Source: Nitrospinota bacterium (GTDB lineage Bacteria > Nitrospinota_A > UBA7883 > JACRGQ01). Taken from it: 38,519 nt of DNA. The notes below the pieces were generated by a model, which saw only the letters and a list, made by a program, of their open reading frames with translations, had not been told where the DNA came from and did not search any database. The position numbers and the translations under genes were made by a program. Numbering within the stretch: position 1 is the first letter of the stretch; the number at the start of each line of letters is the position of its first letter. The stretch spans positions 1 through 38,519 of the forward strand of contig JACRGR010000003.1 of NCBI GenBank assembly GCA_016212275.1, given 5' to 3'. This document shows positions 6,101 to 31,239 of the stretch, in pieces.

Positions 6101-6120
6101 TTGGTATTAAACTTGCTCTC
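6101..6120 (+). promoter_or_regulatory. sigma-54 (-24/-12) promoter of the first pilin
   Basis: TTGGTATTAAACTTGCTCTC. The invariant GG (6103-6104) and GC (6115-6116) are exactly 12 bases apart, as in the TGGCAC-N5-TTGCW consensus. Predicted transcription start is near 6128, about 55 bases before the pilin ATG. The identical 20-mer recurs before the second pilin. Pilin genes are commonly under RpoN and a PilR-type activator. Confidence 0.75.
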
Positions 6121-6181: not shown

Positions 6182-6565
6182 ATGAAAACGTTTAAAAGTG
6201 AAAAGGGCTTTACCTTGATCGAACTCCTGGTGGTTGTCGCGATCATCGGCATCCTGGTGGCGATAGCGATCCCGCAATTCGCCAACTACAAAAAGCAGGC
6301 GAACGATGGAAAGTGCCAATCGGATATTCATAACCTGGCCCTTGCCGCGGAATCGTACTATGCGACCAACGGTGAATACCCGGTATCGGCTACGGGAATC
6401 ACGTCTTCGGCGACCAGCGCCCCGTTGGAAAGTTCGGGTTTCAAAGTTTCTCCCGGCACCAGTTTGTCATTCACCAACGCCACGACCACCTTTTCCGCGA
6501 CCTGCTACCATTCGGGCGGCACCAAAACCTTTACCTGGAATACCGCTTCCGGCGGCCTCCAGTGA
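6182..6565 (+). CDS. type IV pilin-like major subunit, copy 1 (with two cysteines)
   Basis: A 127-residue prepilin. The leader MKTFKSEKG is cut after Gly9 by a PilD-type peptidase to leave N-methylated Phe; the mature start FTLIELLVVVAIIGILVAIAIPQF is the classic class IVa N-terminal helix with Glu5. The rest is short and very Ser/Thr-rich (about 65-127). It carries Cys45 and Cys108, absent from copy 2, which could form a disulfide between the helix and the C-terminal region. It is nearly identical to copy 2 in the N-terminal third and ends in the same FTWN-x-ASGGLQ tail. It is preceded by its own sigma-54 promoter and followed by a weak terminator hairpin. Motility, adhesion or electron-transfer roles are all possible. 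Confidence 0.92.
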   Translation: MKTFKSEKGFTLIELLVVVAIIGILVAIAIPQFANYKKQANDGKCQSDIHNLALAAESYYATNGEYPVSATGITSSATSAPLESSGFKVSPGTSLSFTNATTTFSATCYHSGGTKTFTWNTASGGLQ

Positions 6566-6601
6566 CCGGCGGATGATTCATTCAGCGATTGCTTAAAGGG
6601 T

Positions 6602-6639
6602 AAGGGGATGCGAAAAACTGCATCCTCTTCCTTAACTTT
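6602..6639 (+). terminator. weak terminator hairpin after pilin 1
   Basis: Arms 6602-6611 and 6620-6629 pair over 10 bases with one G-T wobble around an 8-base loop (GAAAAACT). The following stretch CCTTAACTTT is only mildly T-rich, so termination may be partial. Confidence 0.5.
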
Positions 6640-6665
6640 GTATCAATCTCAGCCCTTTCCCTGTT

Positions 6666-6689
6666 TGACAATTTTTGTCACCTCGGACA
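6666..6689 (+). promoter_or_regulatory. inverted repeat, candidate activator site for pilin 2
   Basis: TGACA-ATTTT-TGTCA at 6666-6680, followed by a third half-site GGACA at 6685-6689, about 140-150 bases upstream of the sigma-54 -24 element. Spacing suits an enhancer-binding protein; the regulator is not known. Confidence 0.35.
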
Positions 6690-6817
6690 AATTAATGGTC
6701 TCTTTTGAAATTGGGACGTGTACCCACCCATGAAAGCGGCTATTCTGAATGTTATTTAAATACATGATAATAAAAGGAATATCAAGAATTTTTTGGTATT
6801 GATGCTCTTGAATTTCT

Positions 6818-6837
6818 TTGGTATTAAACTTGCTCTC
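6818..6837 (+). promoter_or_regulatory. sigma-54 (-24/-12) promoter of the second pilin
   Basis: The same 20-mer as at 6101-6120, with GG at 6820-6821 and GC at 6832-6833. A relic copy (TTGGTATTGATGCTC, spacing short by 3 bases) lies just upstream at 6793-6807, and a third GGTATTAAAC without the -12 GC lies near 6848. Predicted start near 6845 gives a leader of about 58 bases. Confidence 0.75.
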
Positions 6838-6902
6838 TTGTGGGGTGGGTATTAAACATGGAATTGGAACAAATAATCAAATTGGAAGGGGGTGAGACTA
6901 GA

Positions 6903-7286
6903 ATGAAAACTCTTAAGGGAGAAAAAGGTTTTACGCTTATCGAACTGCTGGTTGTCGTTGCGATCATCGGCATCCTGGTGGCGATAGCGATCCCGCAATT
7001 CGCCAACTATAAAAAGCAGGCGAACGACGGCGCGGCGGAGGCGGACATCCGCAATTTGGCCTTGGCGGCTGAGTCGTACTACGCGACGAACGGCGCGTAC
7101 CCGGCATCGGTGACGACCATCACCAGCACCACGACCAGCGCGGCGTTTGACGGCGCGGGCTTCAAGGCCACGAAAAACGTGACTTTGGCTTTCACCAACG
7201 CGACCACTACGTTCACGGCTACTGCTTCCAACAGCGGCGGTACCAAGACGTTTACGTGGAATTCCGCGAGTGGCGGCCTCCAATAA
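6903..7286 (+). CDS. type IV pilin-like major subunit, copy 2
   Basis: A 127-residue prepilin, leader MKTLKGEKG cut before Phe, with the same class IVa N-terminal helix and Glu5. The start at 6903 is preferred over the longer frame from 6840 because it gives a normal short leader and has GGAAGGGGGTGAG upstream. It lacks the two cysteines of copy 1 and is even richer in Thr/Ala/Ser in the C-terminal half. A 50-base segment (6960-7009) is identical to 6239-6288 of copy 1, pointing to recent duplication or gene conversion. It is followed by a strong terminator, so it forms a single-gene transcription unit. Confidence 0.92.
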   Translation: MKTLKGEKGFTLIELLVVVAIIGILVAIAIPQFANYKKQANDGAAEADIRNLALAAESYYATNGAYPASVTTITSTTTSAAFDGAGFKATKNVTLAFTNATTTFTATASNSGGTKTFTWNSASGGLQ

Positions 7287-7411: not shown

Positions 7412-7996
7412 ATGTCTAAAACACTGGCCATCGTCCCGGTAGCGCTACTTGCCCTCGCGGTGGGGTGGATCGGCGTTTCCGGCGCGGTCAAGGAACGCCC
7501 CGGCTTTTGCGTTTCATGTCATTTGGATGCCGGCACGCCGCTCCACGCGGAAAAGCACCGCCGGTTCATTCAGGAAAACCCGCAAGACCTTGCGGGGTAT
7601 CACCGGACAAAAGTTCCCGGGGAGTTTGCCTGCTCCGGTTGCCACGATGGGCGCACAATCGGCACGAAGGCAAGAGTGGTGTGGGCGGAAGTCCATAACA
7701 CTTTCCTCTATGTTTTTGGGAAATTTGAAGAGCCGGCAATACCCAACTTGGCCCTTCTGCCCGACGAAAATTGCGAGGGGTGTCACGCGGAGATGAAAAA
7801 AGAACGGGGCAGGTTCCACGGTTTCGCGGCGCACCGTCCGAGGGTGACTGTGGCATGTATCGCATGTCACCGCGCTCACGCGGCGGGCAATGCACGGCGG
7901 CATTACCTGGATGAACTGAAACTGGCGGCCGTGTGCGCAAAATGCCACCGTAATATCCCGGCTGGCTTCTCGTTCAGCGCCACAGGTGGCCAATAG
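7412..7996 (+). CDS. membrane-anchored pentaheme c-type cytochrome (NapC/NirT-like)
   Basis: A 194-residue protein with one N-terminal membrane anchor (about residues 5-25) and five CxxCH haem sites (FCVSCH, ACSGCH, NCEGCH, ACIACH, VCAKCH) in a periplasmic domain. The N-terminal anchor followed at once by an FCxSCH site resembles NapC/NirT/CymA quinol dehydrogenases, but those usually carry four haems, so this is a five-haem relative. Its likely job is passing electrons from the quinone pool to periplasmic cytochromes, possibly to the decaheme protein at 25814; this partnership is inference. No good ribosome site is visible; a TAAAAT hexamer lies at 7395-7400. It is separated from the pilins by a strong terminator. 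Confidence 0.85.
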   Translation: MSKTLAIVPVALLALAVGWIGVSGAVKERPGFCVSCHLDAGTPLHAEKHRRFIQENPQDLAGYHRTKVPGEFACSGCHDGRTIGTKARVVWAEVHNTFLYVFGKFEEPAIPNLALLPDENCEGCHAEMKKERGRFHGFAAHRPRVTVACIACHRAHAAGNARRHYLDELKLAAVCAKCHRNIPAGFSFSATGGQ

Positions 7997-19706: not shown

Positions 19707-21671
19707 CTACTCCGTCAGAGCCTGGATAAGGCGCTTTTCGCGTTTGTCGGGCCACATCGTGATGATGGTGCCGATTCCCATCACCATGCCGCCCACCCAC
19801 AGCCACTTGACCAGCGGGTTGACATGCGCCTTGAAGGTGGCGCTTTCATCCGGGTTCATCGCCGCGAATATCAGGTACAGGTCTTCCCTCATCGTGGACA
19901 TGATCGCCACTTCCGAATTCGGCATGTCGTAGTTCTTGTAGAAATTCTTTTCGGGTTGCATGTAGCCCAGCTTCTTGCCGTCCTTCTCCACCAGCACGGT
20001 CGCCACGAATTCCTCTTTCGTCGGCTTCGGTTTCGAGTAATCGGTGCCGACGTAGGTGAGCCGGTAGTTCTTGATGGCGAACGATTCGCCGGGGCGCACC
20101 GTGGTTTCCACCTGCTGGTTGAACAGGTTGCCGGTGAACCCGATGAACATGCACACCACCCCGATGTGGATGGTGTAGCCGCCGTACCGCCGCTTGTTCT
20201 TCCAAACCAGGTTGAATGCCGCCGCCAGCGGGTTTTCCGCATTGCCCGACATGCGCGCTTTCACGCCGCGCGCCAGTTCCAGCGCGATGGTGCCCGCCAC
20301 GAACGCGCAGGCGGAGAAGAACAACCACGCGAAGATGTCCCGTATTCCCAGCGCCAGCACCGCCGCCCCCGCCAGCACGGCGGTCATGAACGGCACGACG
20401 AAGTTGCGCTTCAGGTTCGCCAGCGACGCCTTGCGCCACGCGATGAGCGGGCAGATGCCGGTGAGTATCAGCAGAGCCAGCCCGATTGGGGTCATCACCT
20501 TGTTGAAGAACGGCGGGCCGACGGTTATCTTCACGCCGCGCACCGCTTCCGAGATCATGGGGAACGTGGTGCCCCACATCACGGCGAACGCCGCGCCGAT
20601 GAGGATGAGGTTGTTGAACAAAAAGCTGGACTCGCGCGAGACCATCGAATCCAGGCTGTTCACGGAGCGCAAAAGTTCGCGCCGGGAAAGTATCAGATAA
20701 ACACTGAACGCGATGGTCAGGATGAGGAACGCGAGGAAGTAGTAGCCCACCGTGGTCTCGCCGAACGAATGCACCGACGAGATGAGGCCGGACCGCGTGA
20801 TGAACGTGCCGAAGATGGTGAGGCAGAACGTCACCGATACCAGCGCCACGTTCCATATTTTGAGCATCCCCTTTTTCTCCTGCACCATCACGGAGTGCAG
20901 GTAGGCGGTGCCCACCAGCCACGGCATGAACGAGGCGTTCTCCACCGGGTCCCACGCCCAGTAGCCGCCCCAGCCCAGTTCCACATAGGCCCAGTTCGCG
21001 CCGAGCAGGTTCCCCATCGTCAGAAAGAACCAGGCGAACACCGTCCACCGCCGCGTGGAGTGTATCCACACTTCCCCCTCCTGCCGCGCCATGAGTGCCG
21101 CCATGGCGAACGCGAACGGGATGGCGAAGGCGACGAACCCGACGTACAGCGTGGGCGGGTGGAAGATCATGCCGGGGTTTTGGAGCATCGGGTTCAGCCC
21201 GTAGCCGTCCGGCGGGAGGCCCGGGAGCCGGTCGAACACCGGCGAGGGGAACACCATCAGCAGGCTGAAGAACGCCAGCGTGGCGGCGATGATCCCGGTG
21301 GTGTATGGCATGATCCGCCGGTTTTTGTTCCGGTTCTGGAACAGGGCGATGGCGCCGAACAGGGCCAGCATCCAGCCCCACAAAAGGAGGGAGCCTTTTT
21401 GTCCCGCCCAAAAAGCGGAGACGGTGTAGAACATGCCGAGGTCGCGGTTGGAATAGTTATAAACGTATTCGATGGAGAAATCGCGCGTGACGAACGCGTA
21501 CATAAGCGCGGCGGACGCCACGGTGTAGAGGGCAAAGAGGGCGTAGAAAGCGTTTTGCGCGCTTTGCACCATCACCTGGTTGTTGCGCGCGCCGCCGATG
21601 AAAGAGACCGCGGCGGCGTACAGCGCCACGATGAGCGAAAGCGAAAGGCTTATCTCACCCAGTCCGGTCAT
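19707..21671 (-). CDS. ccmF: cytochrome c haem lyase subunit CcmF
   Basis: A 654-residue polytopic inner-membrane protein of the Ccm (system I) cytochrome c maturation pathway, which takes haem from CcmE and attaches it to CxxCH apocytochromes. The tryptophan-rich WWD motif is visible in WGGYWAWDPVENASFMPWL (about 240-260), with the periplasmic conserved histidine segments HPPTLYVGF and STRRWTVFAWFFLTMGNLLGA around it. It is the second gene of a leftward pair with ccmE, 28 bases apart. It would be needed to mature the 10-haem, 5-haem and 1-haem proteins in this window. The other Ccm genes are not in view. Confidence 0.95.
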   Translation of the reverse strand: MTGLGEISLSLSLIVALYAAAVSFIGGARNNQVMVQSAQNAFYALFALYTVASAALMYAFVTRDFSIEYVYNYSNRDLGMFYTVSAFWAGQKGSLLLWGWMLALFGAIALFQNRNKNRRIMPYTTGIIAATLAFFSLLMVFPSPVFDRLPGLPPDGYGLNPMLQNPGMIFHPPTLYVGFVAFAIPFAFAMAALMARQEGEVWIHSTRRWTVFAWFFLTMGNLLGANWAYVELGWGGYWAWDPVENASFMPWLVGTAYLHSVMVQEKKGMLKIWNVALVSVTFCLTIFGTFITRSGLISSVHSFGETTVGYYFLAFLILTIAFSVYLILSRRELLRSVNSLDSMVSRESSFLFNNLILIGAAFAVMWGTTFPMISEAVRGVKITVGPPFFNKVMTPIGLALLILTGICPLIAWRKASLANLKRNFVVPFMTAVLAGAAVLALGIRDIFAWLFFSACAFVAGTIALELARGVKARMSGNAENPLAAAFNLVWKNKRRYGGYTIHIGVVCMFIGFTGNLFNQQVETTVRPGESFAIKNYRLTYVGTDYSKPKPTKEEFVATVLVEKDGKKLGYMQPEKNFYKNYDMPNSEVAIMSTMREDLYLIFAAMNPDESATFKAHVNPLVKWLWVGGMVMGIGTIITMWPDKREKRLIQALTE

Positions 21672-21699
21672 TGTCGCCGTTCCGTTCCGCGGGGGGCGG

Positions 21700-22101
21700 T
21701 CAGGTGTTTTGCCCCTGCTTCGAGGCCTCGTACTTGGAGGGACAGCTGGTCAAAAGCGTGTGCGCGATGAAGGTGCCGGAGGGATCGTACTTTCCCTGCA
21801 CCACCACCTTGATATTGTCCTTGAACATGTCCGGCAGGGTGCCGTGGTATTTCACCGGCACCTGTTTCGCCGCGTCGGTGATAACGAAATCGGCGTCCAA
21901 CGCGTTGCCCGCCACCTTGATGGTGCCCGGCACCACGTTGCCTTCCATGCGGAAGTCCTGCCCGCTCCCCGCCATCGAGGCGGATTCGGTCACGGTGAGG
22001 TAATACACGGAGGTTTCCTTAATGCCGGCGTAGATGAGGTACGCCACCGCCCCGACGACCACCAGGCCACCGATGAGGAATTTCTTTTGCGTCTTGTTCA
22101 T
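21700..22101 (-). CDS. ccmE: haem chaperone CcmE, CxxxY variant
   Basis: A 133-residue membrane-anchored periplasmic haem chaperone. Start at the ATG at 22101 gives a short cytoplasmic tail and a TM helix at about 8-26 (FLIGGLVVVGAVAYLIYAGI); a longer frame from 22164 was rejected. The OB-fold core follows (FRMEGNVVPGTIKVAG, VKYHGTLPDMFKD, VVVQGKYD). The covalent haem residue is in C-P-S-K-Y (Cys120, Tyr124) where most CcmE proteins have HxxxY. A Cys in place of His defines the known 'system I*' CcmE of archaea and some sulfate-reducing bacteria. It has its own promoter, divergent from the haem-sensor kinase. Confidence 0.92.
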   Translation of the reverse strand: MNKTQKKFLIGGLVVVGAVAYLIYAGIKETSVYYLTVTESASMAGSGQDFRMEGNVVPGTIKVAGNALDADFVITDAAKQVPVKYHGTLPDMFKDNIKVVVQGKYDPSGTFIAHTLLTSCPSKYEASKQGQNT

Positions 22102-22172: not shown

Positions 22173-22200
22173 ACTATACCACAAATGGGCGCGGTGTTGA
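22173..22200 (-). promoter_or_regulatory. candidate sigma-70 promoter for ccmE-ccmF
   Basis: On the minus strand: TCAACA (22200-22195), a 16-base spacer, and TATAGT (22178-22173, 5 of 6). Its -35 overlaps the -35 of the divergent kinase promoter. Leader length to the ccmE ATG is about 65 bases. Confidence 0.45.
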
Positions 22201-22225
22201 TAAGGTGCCGCAATGCGGGTACAAT
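22197..22225 (+). promoter_or_regulatory. sigma-70 promoter of the haem-sensor kinase operon
   Basis: TTGATA at 22197-22202, a 17-base spacer and TACAAT at 22220-22225, each hexamer 5 of 6. Predicted start near 22232, with a GAGGGG ribosome site at 22242-22247 and the ATG at 22251. Confidence 0.65.
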
Positions 22226-22250: not shown

Positions 22251-24122
22251 ATGAAAAACCGGCTCGACCGGAAGATCGTTGGCATTATTGTCGTGGTGCT
22301 CTCGCTTGCGCTGATCGTTTTTGGCGCCGCGCTGATCCCGTTTATCACGAACCAGTTGCACACGGGCCATGTGAACCGCATTACCCTGCTCGGGGAATCC
22401 ATGGTGCTCCACATCAAGGAGGAGATGCTCTCCGGCGGCGCGCTGGAGGTGGATAAGCTGATGCGCTCGTTCCGCGTTTTGAGGAATGTCCAGGACGTTA
22501 AGGTGTTGAGGACGGACGGGAACACGGCATTCCGCGATCTCTCCACTCTAGACGCGGTTGTCCGGCGGACGCACGATACCCGTTTCCAGCGGAAAGCGCT
22601 GGAACCCGCGAGGGGGTTTGATCCCGCCGACCCGCATTTTCAGGAAATGCTGAAGACGCGGGGGCCGGTTTCGTTCCTTTCGGAAGACAATATGACGCGG
22701 ACGATGCTCTTCCCGCTTAAGAATGAGGAGGCATGCCACAAATGCCACGGCGCCGCCGAGCCGCTTCGCGGCGCGGTGCTAATCTCGCTTTCCACCGCCA
22801 GGATCATGAATACCATCACACAGGTAAAGGAGGTCTTGATACCGGGGTTTGCGGCCATCATGCTGATTACGGCGATATTGCTGTGGGCGCTGTTGAAGCG
22901 GAGCATCATTTTGCCCATTCAAAAACTGGCCGATCATGCCAACACCATCACCAACGAAGGCCTGCATGGGCTCCGGGTGGAGGCCAAAACGGACGACGAG
23001 ATAGGCGGCCTTGCGGCGTCGTTCAATGCCATGACGGAAAAACTGGAGCGCAATTACCACGAACTGGAAAACCAGGAACGCTTCCTGAAAGGGGTGCTGA
23101 GCCAATTGGGCGAAGGCATCACGGTGATGGATCCCGATTACAACATTGTTTTGGTGAACAGCTATGTGGCGAAGGTGATGAAGATGCCGGAAAGCGAGAT
23201 CCTTGGCAAGAAATGCTACCGGCTCATCCACCGGCGCGAGGACCGCTGTCCCGATTGCCCGGTGGCGATCACATTCGCCACGGGGAAAGAGGCTTACACC
23301 TGTCACCAAGGAATCGCGGGGGACGGGAGCGTGACCAACGCGGAACTGTATTCCTATCCACTAAAGGACGGTAACGGCAAAGTGACCCGCGTGGTGGAAA
23401 AGGTACAGGAGGTCTCGCACCGTTTGCGGCAGGAGGAGCGTCTGCGGCAGGCGGAAAAGCTGGCCGCCATGGGGCTCATTGGGGGTGGCGTGGCGCACGA
23501 AGTGGGGAACCCGCTTGCCTCTATTTCTTCGCTGGCCCAGGTAATGCAAAAAAAGACCAATGAGGACTTTACGCGGGAAAACCTCGCTCTCCTGCTCCAC
23601 CATGTCGACCGCATTTCGCGGATCGTGCAGGACTTTCTCGCTTTTTCCCGCCCCGCCTCGGGGCCTGTTGTTCCGGTGCCCCTGAAATATGTGTTGGACT
23701 CCTCCATCAAGTTGGCGCGATACGACACGCGGTTCGAAAACGTGGAGATATCGTGCGCCTATAACGGAATGGAAGGGAAAAAGGTCGCCTGCAATCCGGA
23801 TCAGCTTCAGCAGGTGTTCTTAAACATCCTGTTCAACGCGGCGGACGCCGTGGCGGGAAGGGAAGGGGGGCGCGTGAGCGTGTCGGTCGCCTCGGTGAAC
23901 GGTTCGGTGAACATTGAGTTCGGCGATAACGGCGAAGGGATCGCCCCCGCCGACACGGGAAGGATTTTTGAAGCCTTTTACACCACCAAGGAACCGCAAC
24001 ACGGAATGGGTATGGGGCTTTTCGTCAGTTACGGCATAATCAAAACACTAGGCGGCGCCATTAGCGTCAAAAGCCAACAGGGGCTGGGCGCCACTTTCAC
24101 CGTTACCCTGCCGGTATCATGA
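22251..24122 (+). CDS. sensor histidine kinase with periplasmic haem-c (CxxCH) sensor domain
   Basis: A 623-residue kinase. The ATG at 22251 is chosen over 22119 for the GAGGGG before it and the direct run into TM1 (about 9-31). The periplasmic domain (32-195) ends with C162-H-K-C165-H166, a covalent haem-c motif, followed by TM2 (196-216), HAMP (about 217-270), a PAS domain (about 275-390) with a cysteine cluster (Cys322, Cys333, Cys336, Cys351), the H-box at His416 (GVAHEVGNPL) and a HATPase_c domain (Asn529, DNGEGIAP at 559-566, GMGMGLF). Haem-c in a periplasmic sensor is known from Geobacter-type chemotaxis and kinase proteins and suggests redox or gas sensing. The stop overlaps the ATG of the sigma-54 activator. 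Its own haem needs the divergent ccmEF. Confidence 0.92.
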   Translation: MKNRLDRKIVGIIVVVLSLALIVFGAALIPFITNQLHTGHVNRITLLGESMVLHIKEEMLSGGALEVDKLMRSFRVLRNVQDVKVLRTDGNTAFRDLSTLDAVVRRTHDTRFQRKALEPARGFDPADPHFQEMLKTRGPVSFLSEDNMTRTMLFPLKNEEACHKCHGAAEPLRGAVLISLSTARIMNTITQVKEVLIPGFAAIMLITAILLWALLKRSIILPIQKLADHANTITNEGLHGLRVEAKTDDEIGGLAASFNAMTEKLERNYHELENQERFLKGVLSQLGEGITVMDPDYNIVLVNSYVAKVMKMPESEILGKKCYRLIHRREDRCPDCPVAITFATGKEAYTCHQGIAGDGSVTNAELYSYPLKDGNGKVTRVVEKVQEVSHRLRQEERLRQAEKLAAMGLIGGGVAHEVGNPLASISSLAQVMQKKTNEDFTRENLALLLHHVDRISRIVQDFLAFSRPASGPVVPVPLKYVLDSSIKLARYDTRFENVEISCAYNGMEGKKVACNPDQLQQVFLNILFNAADAVAGREGGRVSVSVASVNGSVNIEFGDNGEGIAPADTGRIFEAFYTTKEPQHGMGMGLFVSYGIIKTLGGAISVKSQQGLGATFTVTLPVS

Positions 24123-25447
24123 ACAGCGCCGATTCAATCCTGCTGGTGGACGACGAGCAGACCATTCTGGATACCCTTTCGCTCATGCTCCGCGAGGAGG
24201 GCTTCCCCGTGGATACCGCGCCGGACGGCGAAACCGCGCTTCAAATGGCCGGCCGGAAGGATTACCGCCTGATCATCTGCGATGTGGTCATGCCCCGGAT
24301 GGGAGGGATCGAACTCCTCGCCAAATTGAAGGAGCGCGGCTCCGGGGTCATGGTGATCCTGATGACGGCCTTCGGCGATATAACCCACGCGGTGGAGGCC
24401 ATGAAGATGGGGGCGGTGGACTATATCGTAAAGCCGTTCATCATTGACGAGGTGATAACTATCGCCCGGCGGGCATGCGCCTCGGGCAAAGGCGAACTGA
24501 CCGGCGGGAGCGGCATCGTGGGTGAAAGCCCGGAAATGCTGGCGACGATCGCCTTGCTCGATAAGTCCGCCGAATCGGACTGCGCGGTGCTGATAACCGG
24601 GGAAAGCGGCGTCGGGAAGGAACTTGCCGCCGCCTACATCCACCGTAAAAGCCCGCGCTCCGGCAATTCGCTGGTGCCGGTGAACTGCGCCGCCATCCCC
24701 CTGGAACTTTTTGAAAGCGAGATGTTCGGGGTGGTGAAAGGGGCCTTTACGAACGCGCTCCAGTCGCGCGAGGGGCTTGTCACGCGGTCGGACAAGGGAA
24801 CGCTGTTCCTCGACGAAATTTGCAGTTTGCCGTTTGCAATGCAGGGCAAACTGTTGCGGGTGCTGGAAAGCCACGAAGTCATGCCGGTGGGAAGCGGGCG
24901 GTCGGAGAAGGTGGACCTGCGCCTTATCGCCGCCACCAACAAAAGCCTTGAAGATGAAGTGAAAGCAGGGAGGTTCAGGGAAGACCTGTATTACCGGCTC
25001 CGGGTTTTCGAGGTGCACCTGCCCCCCTTGCGCGCGCGCAAAACGGACATCCCCCTGCTGGCCCGCCACTATCTCGGCCGGTGTTGCGAAAAATACAAAA
25101 AACGGATCGAGGGGTTTTCGCCGGAGGTGGAGGAACATTTTCTGCGTCACCCGTGGCCGGGCAACGTGCGGGAATTGAAGAACGTCATCGAACGCGCGGT
25201 TCTAGTGACGGACGGCGGGATAGTGACAATGGCTTCCTTGCAACAAAACAATTTGGCGCCTTCCGCTCTCCGGGAAACCGGTTTTGTTGGTTCGTACAAA
25301 GAGTCCATGGCGCAATCCGCCAGGGAACTTATTTTGAATGCGCTGGCGCATTCCGGCAACGACAAGAAAAAGGCGGCGCAGACCCTTGGCCTCAGCCTCT
25401 CGTCACTCTACCGGAAGATGGAAGAACTGGGCATTTCCACTCAGTAA
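24119..25447 (+). CDS. sigma-54 dependent response regulator (NtrC/AtoC family), GAFTNA variant
   Basis: A 442-residue enhancer-binding protein. The receiver domain (1-120) has the Asp55 phosphoacceptor and Lys105. The AAA+ domain has Walker A GESGVGKE (161-168), Walker B GTLFLDE (227-233) and arginine fingers in the FREDLYYRLRV region. The C-terminal Fis-type HTH is at about 400-435. The sigma-54-contacting loop reads GAFTNA (208-213) rather than the near-universal GAFTGA. It overlaps the kinase gene by 4 bases. Its likely target is the sigma-54 promoter 193 bases after its stop, in front of the porin-cytochrome operon. Confidence 0.95.
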   Translation: MNSADSILLVDDEQTILDTLSLMLREEGFPVDTAPDGETALQMAGRKDYRLIICDVVMPRMGGIELLAKLKERGSGVMVILMTAFGDITHAVEAMKMGAVDYIVKPFIIDEVITIARRACASGKGELTGGSGIVGESPEMLATIALLDKSAESDCAVLITGESGVGKELAAAYIHRKSPRSGNSLVPVNCAAIPLELFESEMFGVVKGAFTNALQSREGLVTRSDKGTLFLDEICSLPFAMQGKLLRVLESHEVMPVGSGRSEKVDLRLIAATNKSLEDEVKAGRFREDLYYRLRVFEVHLPPLRARKTDIPLLARHYLGRCCEKYKKRIEGFSPEVEEHFLRHPWPGNVRELKNVIERAVLVTDGGIVTMASLQQNNLAPSALRETGFVGSYKESMAQSARELILNALAHSGNDKKKAAQTLGLSLSSLYRKMEELGISTQ

Positions 25448-25529
25448 TGCCTGCCGCCATGTTCACGGAATCAATTCCTTTGTCCGTACTGTAGTACGGC
25501 CCCGTTTTCCTGAATGTAAGAACAATACC

Positions 25530-25575
25530 TTCCCGATTCCGGGAAATGGGAATTTGATTTCTCGGAATGGGAATT
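25530..25575 (+). promoter_or_regulatory. candidate enhancer (upstream activating sequence) for the sigma-54 activator
   Basis: TTCCCG-ATTC-CGGGAA (25530-25545) is a perfect inverted repeat. AATGGGAATT occurs twice, at 25545-25554 and 25566-25575, exactly 21 bases (two helical turns) apart. The cluster lies 66-111 bases upstream of the -24 GG, a typical distance for NtrC-family binding. Confidence 0.55.
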
Positions 25576-25639
25576 AGCTTTCATCGTTAACCCTTTATTG
25601 TTAGTTGGTTTAGTCGTTGGGAATTCTTGATGTGTACTT

Positions 25640-25655
25640 GGGCACACAAGTTGCT
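25640..25655 (+). promoter_or_regulatory. sigma-54 (-24/-12) promoter of the porin-cytochrome operon
   Basis: GGGCACACAAGTTGCT: GGCAC then TTGCT, with GG (25641-25642) and GC (25653-25654) exactly 12 bases apart; only the base before GG differs from TGGCAC. Predicted transcription start near 25666, giving a leader of about 150 bases. Confidence 0.8.
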
Positions 25656-25695
25656 CTACCAAGAACGGAACATTACCACCTCCCCGCCATTGCAT

Positions 25696-25727
25696 GCAGG
25701 GAGCGGAACAGGGTGTCCGTTCCCTGC
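25696..25727 (+). other. stable hairpin in the 5' leader of the conduit mRNA
   Basis: Arms 25696-25707 (GCAGGGAGCGGA) and 25716-25727 (TCCGTTCCCTGC) pair over 12 bases with one G-T wobble around an 8-base loop. No T-run follows, so it is not a simple terminator; it may stabilise or regulate the transcript. Confidence 0.55.
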
Positions 25728-25813
25728 TTGCCTGAAGATGGTTGGCGGGTAAGGGTGGTATTCGCATTTTTTTGGGGGGTTCTAATGGGCAACTGTTTGA
25801 AGGGTGAGGAGAG

Positions 25814-26758
25814 ATGATGAAGCAGGCGCATTCAAAATGGAAACCGCATTTGTTCTTATTGCTGGCGGCGCTGTTCCTTTTTGCCCCGGCGATGGCGGAA
25901 GCCAACGTCGGCTGGAAGAAATGCCTGGACTGCCACCAGGACTGGTTTGACAAGTGGAAAGAAACGCGCATGGGGAAACTGTTCCTCAAGGCGCCCCAGA
26001 ACGAGACGCAAAAGCTCGTTTGCGAGGCGTGCCACGGGCCGGGTGAAGAGCATATCGCCAACGTGTCGGCGGGCGAGGAATTAGACCTGTCGAAGCTCAT
26101 CACCTTCAAGAAGCATTCAACACAGACGGTTGATGAGAAGAACGGCCAGTGTTTGCAGTGCCATCAGAATGACGCCTACACCGCCATGTGGAAAGGCTCG
26201 ACGCACCAGGGCAACAAAGTTGCCTGCGTGGACTGCCACACCATCATGCAGAACAACACCGACCGCAAGAACATGGCCAAAAAGACGCAGGCAGATACCT
26301 GCTTCCAGTGCCACCTGCAGCGCAAGGCGCAGTACCAGAAGTCGGCCCACATGCCGTACCGCGAAGGGAAAGTCACCTGCACCGACTGCCACAACCCGCA
26401 CGGCACGCCGAACCCCAAGCTGATCGCGGCGGACAGCGTGAACGAGGCCTGCTACAAGTGCCACATGGAAAAACGCGGCCCCTTCCTGTGGGAGCACGCG
26501 CCGGTGCGCGAGAGTTGCTTGAACTGCCACGAGCCGCACGGGAGCAACCACGACAAACTGCTGATCGCCAAGCGCCCGCAGTTGTGCCAACGGTGCCATG
26601 CGCCCACCGGCCATCCGGCTAACGCGTACACCGATCCGGGTCAGGCGGTGGCGGGCAATGCGCGCCAGGGACAATTCATGGCGAACCGCGCATGTAACAA
26701 CTGCCATTCGCAGATACACGGCTCGAACCATCCCGCCGGTCACCGGTTCCACAGGTAG
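25814..26758 (+). CDS. periplasmic decaheme c-type cytochrome, MtrA/DmsE family
   Basis: A 314-residue protein with a signal peptide (about 1-29) and ten CxxCH sites (KCLDCH, VCEACH, QCLQCH, ACVDCH, TCFQCH, TCTDCH, ACYKCH, SCLNCH, LCQRCH, ACNNCH), the haem number of MtrA, PioA and DmsE. The ending (NNCHSQIHGSNHPAG) is typical of the family. It should sit inside the outer-membrane barrel and carry electrons across. GAGGAG lies before ATGATG at 25814/25817; the second ATG is better spaced. It is the first gene of the sigma-54 operon, 68 bases before the barrel gene. Confidence 0.93.
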   Translation: MMKQAHSKWKPHLFLLLAALFLFAPAMAEANVGWKKCLDCHQDWFDKWKETRMGKLFLKAPQNETQKLVCEACHGPGEEHIANVSAGEELDLSKLITFKKHSTQTVDEKNGQCLQCHQNDAYTAMWKGSTHQGNKVACVDCHTIMQNNTDRKNMAKKTQADTCFQCHLQRKAQYQKSAHMPYREGKVTCTDCHNPHGTPNPKLIAADSVNEACYKCHMEKRGPFLWEHAPVRESCLNCHEPHGSNHDKLLIAKRPQLCQRCHAPTGHPANAYTDPGQAVAGNARQGQFMANRACNNCHSQIHGSNHPAGHRFHR

Positions 26759-26826
26759 AAGGGGGGATGGCAATGGATTTGACGAATGGAAAAAATGGGA
26801 CATCCCGTATACAGAGGGGATTTGAA

Positions 26827-29244
26827 ATGAAGAATATCATCGCTATGGCCGTTGCCGGTCTGCTGGGCTTGACCTGCCCGGCGATGGCCGAGGACGATTG
26901 GGAGCAGACGGGTGAACTGAAAACCAGCCTCACCACCGTCTATAACAAGCAGGGGCAGTTGGCCAAGTTCAACGAGTACCGCGACGTGCAGGACGGCGCG
27001 GACGTTGACAAGCTGAAACTGCACCTCGACAAGAAGGACGGCAACTACTACATAGACCTGAACGGGACGCGCCCCGGCCGGAAGGACCAGAACCTGCTAT
27101 TCGGCGTCGGTTCCTACGGCACGTTCGATTTCTCGTTCAAATACGACGAAACGCCGCACAACTTCTGGTTCGGCTACAACAACATGTGGGGGATAGGCGA
27201 CGCCTCCACCCTGCCGGGCGACGTGGGCGGACGGTATTACACTATTCCGGATTCCGTACAACGGGCGCTCCAGGACTCGGTGGCCGCCGGCGGCACCGGC
27301 AACGGGAGCACCACCGGCACCAGCGGGCTGGTGAACGCCAACCTGACCAACGGCCCCAAAGAAGACTTGGCGGTGAACCGGCAGTCCGGCGCCTTGGCCT
27401 TTAAGTACCAGTTCTCCGAAGGGCTGGCGCTGAACTTCGACGCCTCGCGCGAAAACCGCACGGGCACCCGTCCGTTCGGCGGCTACTTTACCTTCGGCCT
27501 GATGCGCGAAATACCGGAGCCGATAGACTATGTGACCAATATCATGAACGCCAACATGTCCTATAAGTCCGACGACCTCTTCCTGAAGCTGGGGTACAAC
27601 GCCTCCACCTTCAAGAACAACATCGGCACCGTGTCGTTCGACAATCCCTACACCCTTGTTCCCACCACCGCGCTGGCGGACGTGGGCCGGATAGACCTCT
27701 ACCCGGACAACGAGGCGGGCGGCTACAACCTGACGTTTGCGGTCAACCTGCCGATCGAGAGCCGTTTGACCGGCTACTATTCGAAGGGGACGATGAAGCA
27801 GAACGACAACTTCATCCCCTTCACGGTGAACACCGCCATCCTGAACGACGCCACGCTCTCGGCCAAAAACGCGATCACCCGCAACGGCGTCGCGGCCACC
27901 AGCCTGGACGGCAATATTGACAACGAGACGCGGAACCTCAAGTTCAACGTTTCGCCGCTGGAGAGCCTGCACCTGAACCTGAACTACCGGTTCTGGAGCT
28001 ATAAGAACAACACGCCGCTTGTTGATTTCTACCGCGTGGCGGCGGGTGACCGCACCCTCAACACATCGGCGACGGATGTTTCCACCAGCACGGCAAACAG
28101 CGGCGTGTACCGCAGGCCGGTGCTGATGAGCTACGAGTACACCACCTACGCCGCCGACTTGGGGTACGACCTCTCCAAGAGCCTGAAGCTGGCATTGAAC
28201 TACGACCAGACCGCCTACAAGCGCCACGGGCGCGAAGTGGAAAACTCGAAGGAAACCACCACGCGGGGCGCGCTCGATTACCGGGGCGCCGGCGACATGG
28301 GGTGGCTCTTCGGCAAGCTCTCCTATACCACGGCCTCGCGCAAGGGAGACGCGTACAAGGACGTATTCGATGAAGAGTCCTACGGGTACTACCCGACCGG
28401 ATCCACCACCTGGATGAACGGCAACGACCAGGTGCGTCAGCTCCCGATGCTCCAGAAATACGACATTGGCGATCGCGACCGGACCCGGATAGACTTCATC
28501 GCCACCGCCTCGCCGATGGACGGCGACCTGAACATGACGCTGAACTACGGCACCGCCAAAGACGACTACAAAGTGAACCGGGATATGCCCGATAACATTG
28601 TGGCGGACGGCGATCCGGCCTGGCTGAACTACCTCACCAGCCAGGATACCGTCAACGACCTGTACGGCCTGACCAAGAACGAGCTCAACACCTCCGGTAT
28701 CGACCTTTCCTGGCAACTGGCCGCCAGCGTGACCGTAAGCGGCTTCTACAACACCGAGACCTACAAGTACACCCAGCGCAACAGGCCGGGCGGCGGCGGC
28801 ACCGCCACCAGCTCCACCGATTGGTCAATGGACGGCACCGACACGGTGGTGACCACCGGACTGGGGCTCAGCGGCAGGCTGTTCTCCAGCGTGTCCTACG
28901 GGGTCAACTACATCGTGAGCGACGCGAAAGGGGAACAATCGTTCTCGGCTTACGGCAGTAGCACCGGCGCCAACATCACCAATGCCAAGCTTGAGACGAA
29001 GAACAAGATCAGCAGTTGGTATGGCAACGTGGATTACGAGGTCCAAAAGAACATGACCTTGGGGCTGAACTTCGTGTACGAAAAGTACGAAGTGACCGAC
29101 TGGGCGCTGGACAACGTGACCGGGAACTACTTCCCGGCGGGCGATCCCACGGCAAACTCGACCAGCGGCAACCTCCTGCTCGGCGTCGGCAACAACTCTT
29201 ATGACGTGTCGGCCGTCTCGCTGGTCGCCAAGTACAACTTCTGA
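26827..29244 (+). CDS. outer-membrane beta-barrel of porin-cytochrome conduit, MtrB/PioB family
   Basis: An 805-residue barrel protein starting at the ATG at 26827 (GAGGGGA 6 bases before), chosen over 26767. A signal peptide (KNIIAMAVAGLLGLTCPAMA) is followed by family-like N-terminal strands (YNKQGQLAKFNEYRDVQDG, LFGVGSYGTFDFSFKYDETPHNFWFG), many alternating aromatic strands, and a terminal phenylalanine (AKYNF) as expected for BAM recognition. The family sheathes an MtrA-type decaheme cytochrome. There is no CxxC in the mature N-terminus as there is in Shewanella MtrB. With the gene before it this forms the core MtrA-MtrB pair. Confidence 0.9.
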   Translation: MKNIIAMAVAGLLGLTCPAMAEDDWEQTGELKTSLTTVYNKQGQLAKFNEYRDVQDGADVDKLKLHLDKKDGNYYIDLNGTRPGRKDQNLLFGVGSYGTFDFSFKYDETPHNFWFGYNNMWGIGDASTLPGDVGGRYYTIPDSVQRALQDSVAAGGTGNGSTTGTSGLVNANLTNGPKEDLAVNRQSGALAFKYQFSEGLALNFDASRENRTGTRPFGGYFTFGLMREIPEPIDYVTNIMNANMSYKSDDLFLKLGYNASTFKNNIGTVSFDNPYTLVPTTALADVGRIDLYPDNEAGGYNLTFAVNLPIESRLTGYYSKGTMKQNDNFIPFTVNTAILNDATLSAKNAITRNGVAATSLDGNIDNETRNLKFNVSPLESLHLNLNYRFWSYKNNTPLVDFYRVAAGDRTLNTSATDVSTSTANSGVYRRPVLMSYEYTTYAADLGYDLSKSLKLALNYDQTAYKRHGREVENSKETTTRGALDYRGAGDMGWLFGKLSYTTASRKGDAYKDVFDEESYGYYPTGSTTWMNGNDQVRQLPMLQKYDIGDRDRTRIDFIATASPMDGDLNMTLNYGTAKDDYKVNRDMPDNIVADGDPAWLNYLTSQDTVNDLYGLTKNELNTSGIDLSWQLAASVTVSGFYNTETYKYTQRNRPGGGGTATSSTDWSMDGTDTVVTTGLGLSGRLFSSVSYGVNYIVSDAKGEQSFSAYGSSTGANITNAKLETKNKISSWYGNVDYEVQKNMTLGLNFVYEKYEVTDWALDNVTGNYFPAGDPTANSTSGNLLLGVGNNSYDVSAVSLVAKYNF

Positions 29245-29295
29245 CGGCGGGGGGAAATGACAATGGAACAACAATCGAAGTTCGGAGGTTGGAGA

Positions 29296-31194
29296 ATGAA
29301 GGGCGTAATTGAATCCATGATGCCGGAACGGGGCAGAAGGCGGTCGCGCCTCATTGCCGCGCTTTCCGCCGTCATTTTAAGCGTATCCATGTTCACCGCC
29401 TGTAAAGGGTCGGTGGAAAGCAACCAGGCCGCGGCCACATTCGGCGCCCCCACCGGGGTCTCCGTGACGGCCAATAACAGTCAATTGACGGTGGATTGGA
29501 ACGCGGTGGTGGGCGCCGCTTCCTATAAGATATATCAGTCCACCACCGCCGGCGGGTCGTCCGCCGCCACCCCGGTCGCCGGTGTGACCGGCACCGAATA
29601 CACCGCCACGAAACTGACCAATACCACCACCTATTATTACTCGGTATCGGCGGTTGACGGAGCGGGCACGGAAAGCGCGCTTTCCGGCGAAGTCTCCGGC
29701 AAGCCGCTCGCCGTGGTCAGCACCGCGCCGGCGGCCCCCGCGGGCACGTCCGCCAACGGGTGCGATGCGGCAACCTGCCCCAATACGACGATCAACCTTA
29801 TTACCTGGACCAGCGTTTCCGGCCTGACCTACGATATTTACTGGAGCACCACCCAGGCCAACGCCACCATGACCGCCGGGACGAAGATCGCTTCGCCCAC
29901 CAGCCCGTATTCGCATACCGGGTTGACGGCCGGCACCAAGTACTACTACATCATCGTGGCGACCGATTCGCAGGGGCAAAAGACCGCGTCCGCCCAGTTG
30001 TCCGCCACGCCGGGCGTTCCAGCGGCGCCCTCTTGCACGGCGGCGGGGGACGGCGCATCCAGCGTGAAGGTGACCAGTGCGTCCACCAACGCCACCAGCA
30101 TTAACCTGTATTACCGCACCAGCGCTGGCGTAACCACCGTGAACGGCACCGCAGTGACCGGCTATACATCGGCTACGGCGGTATCCGGGTTATCTGCCGG
30201 CACGAAGTACTACTTCGTGTGTACCGCCGTGGGCGCGGGTGGCGAAAGCACCGCGTCGGCGGAAGCGAACGCCTATGCGGGGGCGACCAGCGCGCCGACC
30301 TTTACGGTGACGTCCAGCTCCGGCCAGAACATTATCACGATCACGGCACCCACCACCGGCACGGCGACGTCGTACAAGATATATTGGGATAACAATCCCA
30401 TTGCGACGACCGCGGCGCAAACCAGCAACGTGATCAGCACTACCACCTCTCCCTACACCCATTCGGGGTTGACGGATGGGATGGTGTACCGGTATGCCGT
30501 TTCGGCGGTGAACGCCAACGGCGAAAGCGCCACGGCCACCCTGCAGTCCGTGCTGATGGCCAAACCGCAAGCGCCGACCGGCGTGGCGGTGGATGCCCTT
30601 TCCGCCACCACCGCGGCGGTTTCCTGGGCCACGTTGACGACGGGGGGACCCGGCTCGGCGGGAGTGACCTACAACGTTTATTACTCGACCACCCCGGGAG
30701 TTGTTCCAGGGGCAACCGGCGTCACCAAACTCACCGGCAAGACCTCGTCTAACTCGGCATCTATAGGCGCCACCTTTACCACCGCTACGGCGTATTACTT
30801 CGTGGTGACGGCAAATAACGCCTTTGGCGAAAGCTCCGCATCCATAGAGGCCGGCGTGAAAGTGGCCGCCAACGCCACCAATGCGCCGACCAGGGTACGA
30901 GCGGGGGCCACAGCGAACGCCAATACCGGGGCACTGACGACGGGAGGTATCACTTTGTCATGGACCGCGCCCACAACGGCACCGTCCTATTACAACGTGT
31001 ACTATGGCACCAGTGCGACCATGACCACCACAAACGGGGGAAGCACCAAAATAACCGCGGCGGCTCCCGGCGCGGCCACCACCTTTGCCATCACCGGGTT
31101 GACCAGCGGCGTCGGGTACTACTTCATCGTCACGGCGGTAACGTCGGCAGGCGTGGAGACAGCATCGCAGACCCTTTACGCGGTAGTGCCCTAA
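29296..31194 (+). CDS. fibronectin type III repeat lipoprotein linked to the MtrAB conduit
   Basis: A 632-residue protein. ATG 29296 is preferred (GGAGG 7 bases before) over 29257. A basic n-region and hydrophobic stretch lead to a likely lipobox (SMFTAC, Cys36), so it should be lipidated. The rest is six fibronectin type III-like repeats (starting at APTGVSV, APAGTSA, PAAPSCT, APTFTVT, APTGVAV and APTRVRA), each with a YxIYxST or YNVYYST core, very rich in Thr/Ser/Gly/Ala. No CxxCH is present, so it binds no haem c. It lies 51 bases after the barrel gene and before a strong terminator, so it is the third member of the operon. A surface-displayed adhesin or scaffold for the conduit is my inference. 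Confidence 0.88.
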   Translation: MKGVIESMMPERGRRRSRLIAALSAVILSVSMFTACKGSVESNQAAATFGAPTGVSVTANNSQLTVDWNAVVGAASYKIYQSTTAGGSSAATPVAGVTGTEYTATKLTNTTTYYYSVSAVDGAGTESALSGEVSGKPLAVVSTAPAAPAGTSANGCDAATCPNTTINLITWTSVSGLTYDIYWSTTQANATMTAGTKIASPTSPYSHTGLTAGTKYYYIIVATDSQGQKTASAQLSATPGVPAAPSCTAAGDGASSVKVTSASTNATSINLYYRTSAGVTTVNGTAVTGYTSATAVSGLSAGTKYYFVCTAVGAGGESTASAEANAYAGATSAPTFTVTSSSGQNIITITAPTTGTATSYKIYWDNNPIATTAAQTSNVISTTTSPYTHSGLTDGMVYRYAVSAVNANGESATATLQSVLMAKPQAPTGVAVDALSATTAAVSWATLTTGGPGSAGVTYNVYYSTTPGVVPGATGVTKLTGKTSSNSASIGATFTTATAYYFVVTANNAFGESSASIEAGVKVAANATNAPTRVRAGATANANTGALTTGGITLSWTAPTTAPSYYNVYYGTSATMTTTNGGSTKITAAAPGAATTFAITGLTSGVGYYFIVTAVTSAGVETASQTLYAVVP

Positions 31195-31209: not shown

Positions 31210-31239
31210 GGCCCGGGTTTAACCACCCGGGCCGGTTTT
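31210..31239 (+). terminator. rho-independent terminator of the conduit operon
   Basis: GGCCCGGGT (31210-31218), loop TTAACC, ACCCGGGCC (31225-31233), then GGTTTT. A perfect 9-base GC-rich stem. Confidence 0.85.

Follow-up and report, generated by a model that had tools for sequence, protein, structure and literature searches.

Organization of the locus

The stretch of DNA analyzed here (38,519 nucleotides; hereafter, the window) is part of contig JACRGR010000003.1 of a Nitrospinota bacterium (assembly GCA_016212275.1), whose genome is a 2.19-Mb draft of 81 contigs, 83% complete. On one strand, and in this order, the window carries the genes for a histidine kinase with a c-haem motif, an NtrC-type response regulator and, after a gap of 366 bp, an MtrA-type cytochrome, an MtrB-type outer-membrane barrel, and a protein with fibronectin type III (FN3) domains, followed by a hairpin (Table 1). 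The kinase and regulator genes overlap by 4 bp (24119–24122), and the gaps between the genes of the conduit are of 8 bp (MtrA-MtrB) and 12 bp (MtrB-FN3). The kinase gene starts with the ATG at 22251, preceded by a GAGGGG ribosome site. The number of sigma-70-like sites in the region is no higher than expected by chance, so the promoter placed before this gene is proposed from its position only.

The conduit proteins could be assigned by comparison with NCBIfam models and solved structures. The cytochrome has ten CxxCH motifs, scores 256.7 bits with TIGR03508 (DmsE/MtrA; cut-off 192.2), and among solved structures it matches chain A of the Mtr complex 6R2Q best (E 5e-66). The barrel scores 245.8 bits with TIGR03509 (MtrB/PioB; cut-off 240.05), and an MtrB_PioB domain was found in the domain scan. 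Its AlphaFold model, of moderate confidence (pLDDT 63), shows 26 long strands, with strands one and two separated by a short helix, both of them features described for Shewanella MtrB (PMC7198977), and the top Foldseek match of the model is chain B of 6R2Q (E 8e-32); the true start of the gene may lie downstream of 26767. Four stretches of the third protein match fn3, and it has a lipobox-like FTAC. These results bear out the original prediction, made from the letters of the sequence, of a decahaem MtrA/DmsE-type cytochrome, an MtrB/PioB-type barrel and an FN3 lipoprotein.

The window shares the decahaem MtrA and 26-strand MtrB families with MtrAB of Shewanella (6R2Q) and with MtoAB/PioAB (PMC7198977). 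In contrast to the Shewanella Mtr system, however, the operon has no gene for an extracellular decahaem MtrC/OmcA, the position of which is occupied by the FN3 gene, and because of this the locus was not classed as MtrCAB. The FN3 protein is a candidate surface partner of the conduit. It was rejected as a conserved conduit part, being absent downstream of MtrB in the syntenic locus of another genome described below, and BLAST finding no match to it next to the other MtrA loci that were sampled.

Table 1. Features of the kinase-conduit locus and its surroundings (window positions)
Feature	Position	Strand	Basis or remarks
Divergent cytochrome c maturation genes ccmF, ccmE	19707..22101	-	Consistent with c-haem attachment
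Sigma-70-like promoter before the kinase gene	22197..22225	+	TTGATA-17-TACAAT, 10/12 consensus bases; position only
c-haem sensor histidine kinase	22251..24122	+	Transmembrane helix, periplasmic Cache/PAS-like sensor, transmembrane helix, HAMP, PAS (CPDCP), HisKA, HATPase
NtrC-type sigma-54-dependent response regulator	24119..25447	+	Receiver, AAA+, Fis helix-turn-helix; GAFTNA variant
Two tandem 21-nt operator-like repeats (putative upstream activating sequence)	25535..25576	+	Copy comparison, genome search
Sigma-54 (-24/-12) promoter-like site GGGCAC-N5-TTGCT	25640..25655	+	Equivalents upstream of mtrA in G017:C56 and G017:C7
Predicted 5' leader of the conduit transcript	25666..25813	+	Folding energy
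MtrA/DmsE-family periplasmic decahaem cytochrome c	25814..26758	+	10 CxxCH, TIGR03508
MtrB/PioB-family outer-membrane beta-barrel	26767..29244	+	26 predicted strands, TIGR03509
Lipoprotein-like FN3 protein	29257..31194	+	Several fibronectin type III domains, no CxxCH
Terminator-like hairpin, then GGUUUU	31210..31233	+	9-bp stem, weak U-tract

The probable c-haem sensor domain of the kinase

The domain scans placed the CxxCH of the kinase (Cys162–His166) before the second transmembrane helix, with the HAMP, PAS, HisKA, and HATPase domains after it. Together with the gene coordinates, they confirm the earlier description of a kinase that has this motif and whose gene overlaps that of a sigma-54 activator. 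The periplasmic domain was aligned with 25 relatives, and in this alignment CxxCH is kept in all 26 sensors, which are otherwise divergent, while the position of Met59, the distal Met, is kept in 23 of 25 aligned sequences. The profile of the alignment matched GSU0935 (3B42; E 2.7e-22) and GSU0582 (3B47; E 1.1e-21) far above all other proteins. Likewise, 3B42 and 3B47 were the top three Foldseek matches (E 3.6e-7 to 4e-5) of the AlphaFold model of the sensor (pLDDT 90.5), with template modeling scores of just 0.4–0.5, perhaps as a result of domain swapping in the solved dimers. The family PF21563 scored 30.1 bits with the sensor domain alone (cut-off 27), and slightly under the cut-off (25.8 bits) with the whole kinase. 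The label Tll0287-like (PF11845) was rejected at 14.8 bits, under its cut-off of 24.1.

In the model, the third and fourth strands have CxxCH between them (strands 120–128 and 143–152 flank residues 131–137), which is where it is placed in haem-Cache domains (PMC12889525). The haem ligands of GSU0935 are His144 and Met60 (PMC8396549), and these correspond, as counted on the profile alignment, to His166 and Met59 of the window kinase. By profile, fold, CxxCH, and distal Met, the sensor is a member of the GSU0935/GSU0582 c-haem family. Because the motif, family profile, fold, and ligand residues all match GSU0935-type sensors, covalent attachment of haem is very likely, and it is further supported by ccmE and ccmF, which adjoin the locus. 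With GSU0935 and GSU0582 (PF21563; the haem-Cache/Tll0287-like group) the kinase also shares the linkage of transmembrane helix and HAMP; their output, however, is a chemoreceptor (methyl-accepting chemotaxis protein), whereas the window sensor has a histidine kinase as its output, with an NtrC-type regulator as the partner.

In the cytoplasmic PAS domain, Cys322 and the CPDCP at 333–336 (window 23214–23258) are invariant in the three closest kinases. These cysteines are a possible second redox or metal site.

The regulator, its operator-like repeats, and the sigma-54-like site

The domain scan of the regulator found a receiver, a sigma-54 AAA+ domain, a lid, and a Fis helix-turn-helix, an NtrC-like architecture that would fit the function of an activator. 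The best NCBIfam models for kinase and regulator were AtoS and AtoC, both under their cut-offs. The pair has the same kinase core and regulator architecture as the AtoSC, ZraSR, and NtrBC systems, but differs from them in sensor domain and target.

The enhancer-like repeat noted earlier upstream of mtrA consists of two tandem 21-nt copies (25535–25555 and 25556–25576), 76% identical and in 21-bp (helical) phase, located 90–130 bp upstream of the expected transcription start. A search of the bacterium's own genome, within the 83% that the draft covers, returned nothing else with fewer than two mismatches and no second tandem pair. A wider regulon was rejected, as the three sites with two mismatches are all single copies inside open reading frames; matches with three mismatches exceed the reversed control, an excess that may reflect composition.

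Between the repeats and mtrA is the sigma-54-like site, which is intergenic, on the right strand, and 60–100 bp downstream of the repeats. It is near consensus, with 12 bases from GG to GC and a 10-nt gap, in agreement with the spacing originally reported. The significance of the match taken alone did not stand: because 1.59 such sites (up to one mismatch) are expected in the window by chance, the site was rejected as a finding of scanning by itself, and the sigma-54 claim is carried by its position and recurrence. No sigma-70-like site was found in the region upstream of mtrA, and rpoN is present in the source genome. An RpoN-dependent start near 25666, with the regulator binding to the repeats, would be consistent with this layout.

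Elsewhere in the window, identical sigma-54-like sites (TGGTATTAAACTTGCT; 6102–6117 and 6819–6834) precede two near-identical genes for type IV pilin-like proteins, and this pair is followed by a gene for a five-haem cytochrome (further coordinates 6182–7286 and 7412–7996).

Recurrence of the arrangement in other genomes

Twenty-four genomes of the phylum were sampled, six of which have a DmsE/MtrA above the cut-off, at seven loci in total. The survey of MtrA/DmsE comprised about 40 loci, and the sigma-54 scan about 38 MtrA upstream regions. In one genome of the same class but of another family (locus G017:C56), a CxxCH kinase, an NtrC, MtrA, and MtrB occur in the same order and orientation as in the window, with identities of 42% (kinase), 45% (regulator), 60% (MtrA), and 38% (MtrB). 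Among 42 MtrA-like proteins placed on a tree, these two MtrA are sisters (support 97/98). Upstream of mtrA, this locus also has a -24/-12 site, AGGCAC-N5-TTGCT (AGGCACAGCCCTTGCT). The questions raised with the original prediction, namely whether the kinase-regulator-MtrA-MtrB-FN3 order exists elsewhere and whether such a pair is ever found next to MtrAB, can thus be answered: outside the family of the window, too, a pair of this kind adjoins MtrAB, with a sigma-54-like site at the corresponding position but no FN3 gene.

The same genome has a second conduit (G017:C7), behind an NtrC-type pair with a different regulator, and a site TGGCAT-N5-CTGCT (TGGCATACAATCTGCT). The window and G017:C56 scored 5.5 in the sigma-54 scan, and G017:C7 4.5; two further loci also reached 4.5 and no other locus scored higher, one of their sites being 553 bp upstream of the scanned end. 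The best-placed sigma-54-like sites among the surveyed loci were those behind kinase-NtrC pairs. Such a pair is upstream of MtrA at 4 of the approximately 40 loci (the window, G017:C56, G017:C7, and G119), and the c-haem motif was seen in the kinases of two of them, the window and G017:C56; the kinase of G017:C7 ends at the contig edge. The NtrC-type regulator of a further genome, G003, was rejected as a conduit regulator, since a 318-aa accA-like open reading frame separates it from mtrA and there is no good sigma-54 site; it also has no recognized kinase beside it.

Related groupings were also seen away from MtrAB. In a genome of another phylum (G055, L032:1294–6209), the genes for a kinase with two CxxCH, an NtrC regulator, a receiver, and an 11-haem NapC/NrfH-like cytochrome stand in a row. 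Judging by gene content, the grouping of haem kinase, sigma-54 regulator, and multihaem cytochrome recurs with an inner-membrane partner in this genome and, it seems, in Geobacter. Contig C59 of the bacterium's own genome has an 868-aa open reading frame with 29 CxxCH motifs (L135:8830–11436), and a 9-haem lipoprotein-like one cut by the contig end (L135:1–909), adjoined by another NtrC-type regulator. In uncultured Geobacteraceae (L118:8560–11806 and L119:8399–11707), a haem-sensor open reading frame lies directly downstream of a 12-haem cytochrome, which in L118 is of the triheme-repeat "nanowire" type.

Predicted leader and possible terminator of the conduit transcript

The predicted leader of mtrA folds strongly (-65.2 kcal/mol, z -4.0) and has a T-run after the fold, near 25768–25774, so that by its predicted structure it could be an attenuator. 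An Rfam scan of the region upstream of mtrA gave no family above the cut-off; the sub-threshold matches, to animal RNA families, were dismissed as chance. The leader is single copy in the genome and was rejected as a repeated element, and also as a conserved riboregulator, the G017 leader being short and different by eye. The hairpin after the FN3 gene (-20.6 kcal/mol, z -3.1) has the form expected of the single terminator previously placed here, with only four U after the stem; it is a plausible terminator, but a weak one.

A proposed local two-component system for the conduit

We consider it moderately probable that the locus is a two-component system with a dedicated local target, an outer-membrane electron conduit, the haem kinase acting through the NtrC-type regulator on mtrA-mtrB-FN3. 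Computation shows the genes and their conserved order, the haem site, the family to which it belongs, the fold, rpoN, and a promoter-like site that recurs. From these we infer that haem is attached, that phosphotransfer and DNA binding take place, where transcription starts, and what the signal is and in which direction it acts, as follows. The periplasmic Cache/PAS-like domain would hold a covalent c-haem, with His166 as the proximal ligand and Met59 as the probable exchangeable distal ligand. If the haem iron changed state (by oxidation and release of Met59, a mechanism like that proposed for the Geobacter sensors), the dimer and the output of the HAMP-PAS-kinase module would be altered, and the kinase would phosphorylate the regulator. 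This would then bind both tandem sites and open the RNA polymerase-sigma-54 complex at the -24/-12 site, and the transcription of mtrA-mtrB-FN3 would lead to an MtrAB wire being built through the outer membrane.

Besides the chance expectation of the sigma-54 site, several observations weigh against this proposal. The loop of the regulator reads GAFTNA instead of the canonical GAFTGA, with Phe and Thr retained; its relatives have GSFTGA or GAFTGA. The repeats were not recognizable in G017, which is also the only further genome with the full haem-kinase arrangement. At G119, CxxCH is missing from the kinase of the pair before MtrA, and the scan gave no sigma-54-like site. Most of the other relatives of the sensor are on proteins away from conduits, and in G019 a related pair (39–45% identity for the kinase halves and 43% for the regulator) is divided between two contigs and has no MtrAB in its vicinity. 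The comparative support for the "dedicated sensor-effector unit" of the original prediction is strong, given G017:C56, but an exclusive role in the conduit is not upheld, because the G019 pair is not beside MtrAB.

The last observation also fits a broader respiratory regulator with its main targets elsewhere, mtrAB being under its own constitutive control or some other; most MtrA loci, moreover, have no kinase-regulator pair. We regard this as quite unlikely, since nothing close to the tandem repeats was found a second time in the draft genome, G017:C56, which is syntenic, likewise has a sigma-54-like site immediately before mtrA, and a sigma-70-like site is lacking in that region of the window. 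More improbable still is an input through the cytoplasmic PAS with its CPDCP cysteines, or through another ligand, the c-haem being structural or vestigial: Cys322, Cys333, and Cys336 are indeed invariant in the three closest kinases, but the conservation of CxxCH in all of the divergent sensors would be hard to explain if the haem had no role.

With the wiring unchanged, the haem-Cache domain may instead sense nitric oxide (NO) or another diatomic gas, and the conduit would be switched by the arrival or loss of NO or nitrogen oxides, not by redox potential. The window sensor matches the GSU0935/GSU0582 family, and both of these proteins bind NO and carbon monoxide (PMC8396549). According to a 2026 preprint, a membrane-bound, HAMP-linked haem-Cache protein binds NO tightly, with a koff like that of known NO sensors, and its authors propose NO sensing for all signaling-fused members (PMC12889525), which also counts against a redox signal. 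However, the protein of the preprint is predicted to be five-coordinate, probably with water as the sixth ligand, while the window sensor keeps the distal Met of GSU0935, and GSU0935 and GSU0582 were interpreted as redox-linked; redox sensing also suits an electron conduit more directly. We therefore hold the NO reading to be unlikely, though worth keeping in mind. In GSU0935 and GSU0582, the distal Met is released on oxidation and bound on reduction, at midpoint potentials of -156 and -251 mV (PMC8396549). Because Met59 is conserved and the target is an electron conduit, redox state is favored as the signal, but not strongly. The earlier interpretation is supported in its dedicated-unit half, while its other half, that periplasmic redox state or electron flow is read, is what we infer.

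Relation to known systems and significance

Each part of the locus belongs to a known family, and the combination that the parts form at an outer-membrane conduit is shared by two families within one class. There are precedents for a haem kinase that has a sigma-54 regulator as its partner in the vicinity of respiratory cytochromes. In work by Joshi et al. in 2021, GSU0598 (BccR) was reportedly recognized as an RpoN-dependent regulator required for cbcBA. By analogy, GSU0599-GSU0598-cbcBA would be alike in its working, with a haem-c kinase, a sigma-54 regulator, and a component of extracellular electron transfer, but its target is an inner-membrane cytochrome, whereas that of the window is an outer-membrane conduit. 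In PMC8396549, GSU0599 of Geobacter sulfurreducens is given among the two-component proteins, with two c-haem motifs. The known conduit regulators are of the TetR and LysR types (PMC6148476). At the Geobacter ext/omcB conduit, regulator genes lie beside the conduit cluster, as in the window (PMC6148476), but they are TetR or LysR, in place of a haem kinase and a sigma-54 regulator. This last combination on an outer-membrane conduit was not found described in the open-licence literature, which is weak evidence of absence. As a claim on outer-membrane conduits, the "undescribed arrangement" of the original prediction stands within this literature; as a general idea, it does not, having these precedents.

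That the arrangement is shared with a distant relative suggests, as far as gene order can tell, that the cell switches the wire on by a chemical state detected through haem. More tentatively, a closed feedback is possible, if doubtful, in which the c-haem kinase would read the periplasmic electron pool that MtrAB drains or fills, and would set how many wires are made, by way of sigma-54; extracellular electron transfer is not something for which the phylum Nitrospinota is known. With sensor, regulator, operator, promoter, and conduit side by side, the system comes down to few parts: one sensor domain, one promoter, and one reporter. The locus also gives a concrete case for the debate on c-haem Cache kinases, in which redox state and nitric oxide are the two signals proposed.

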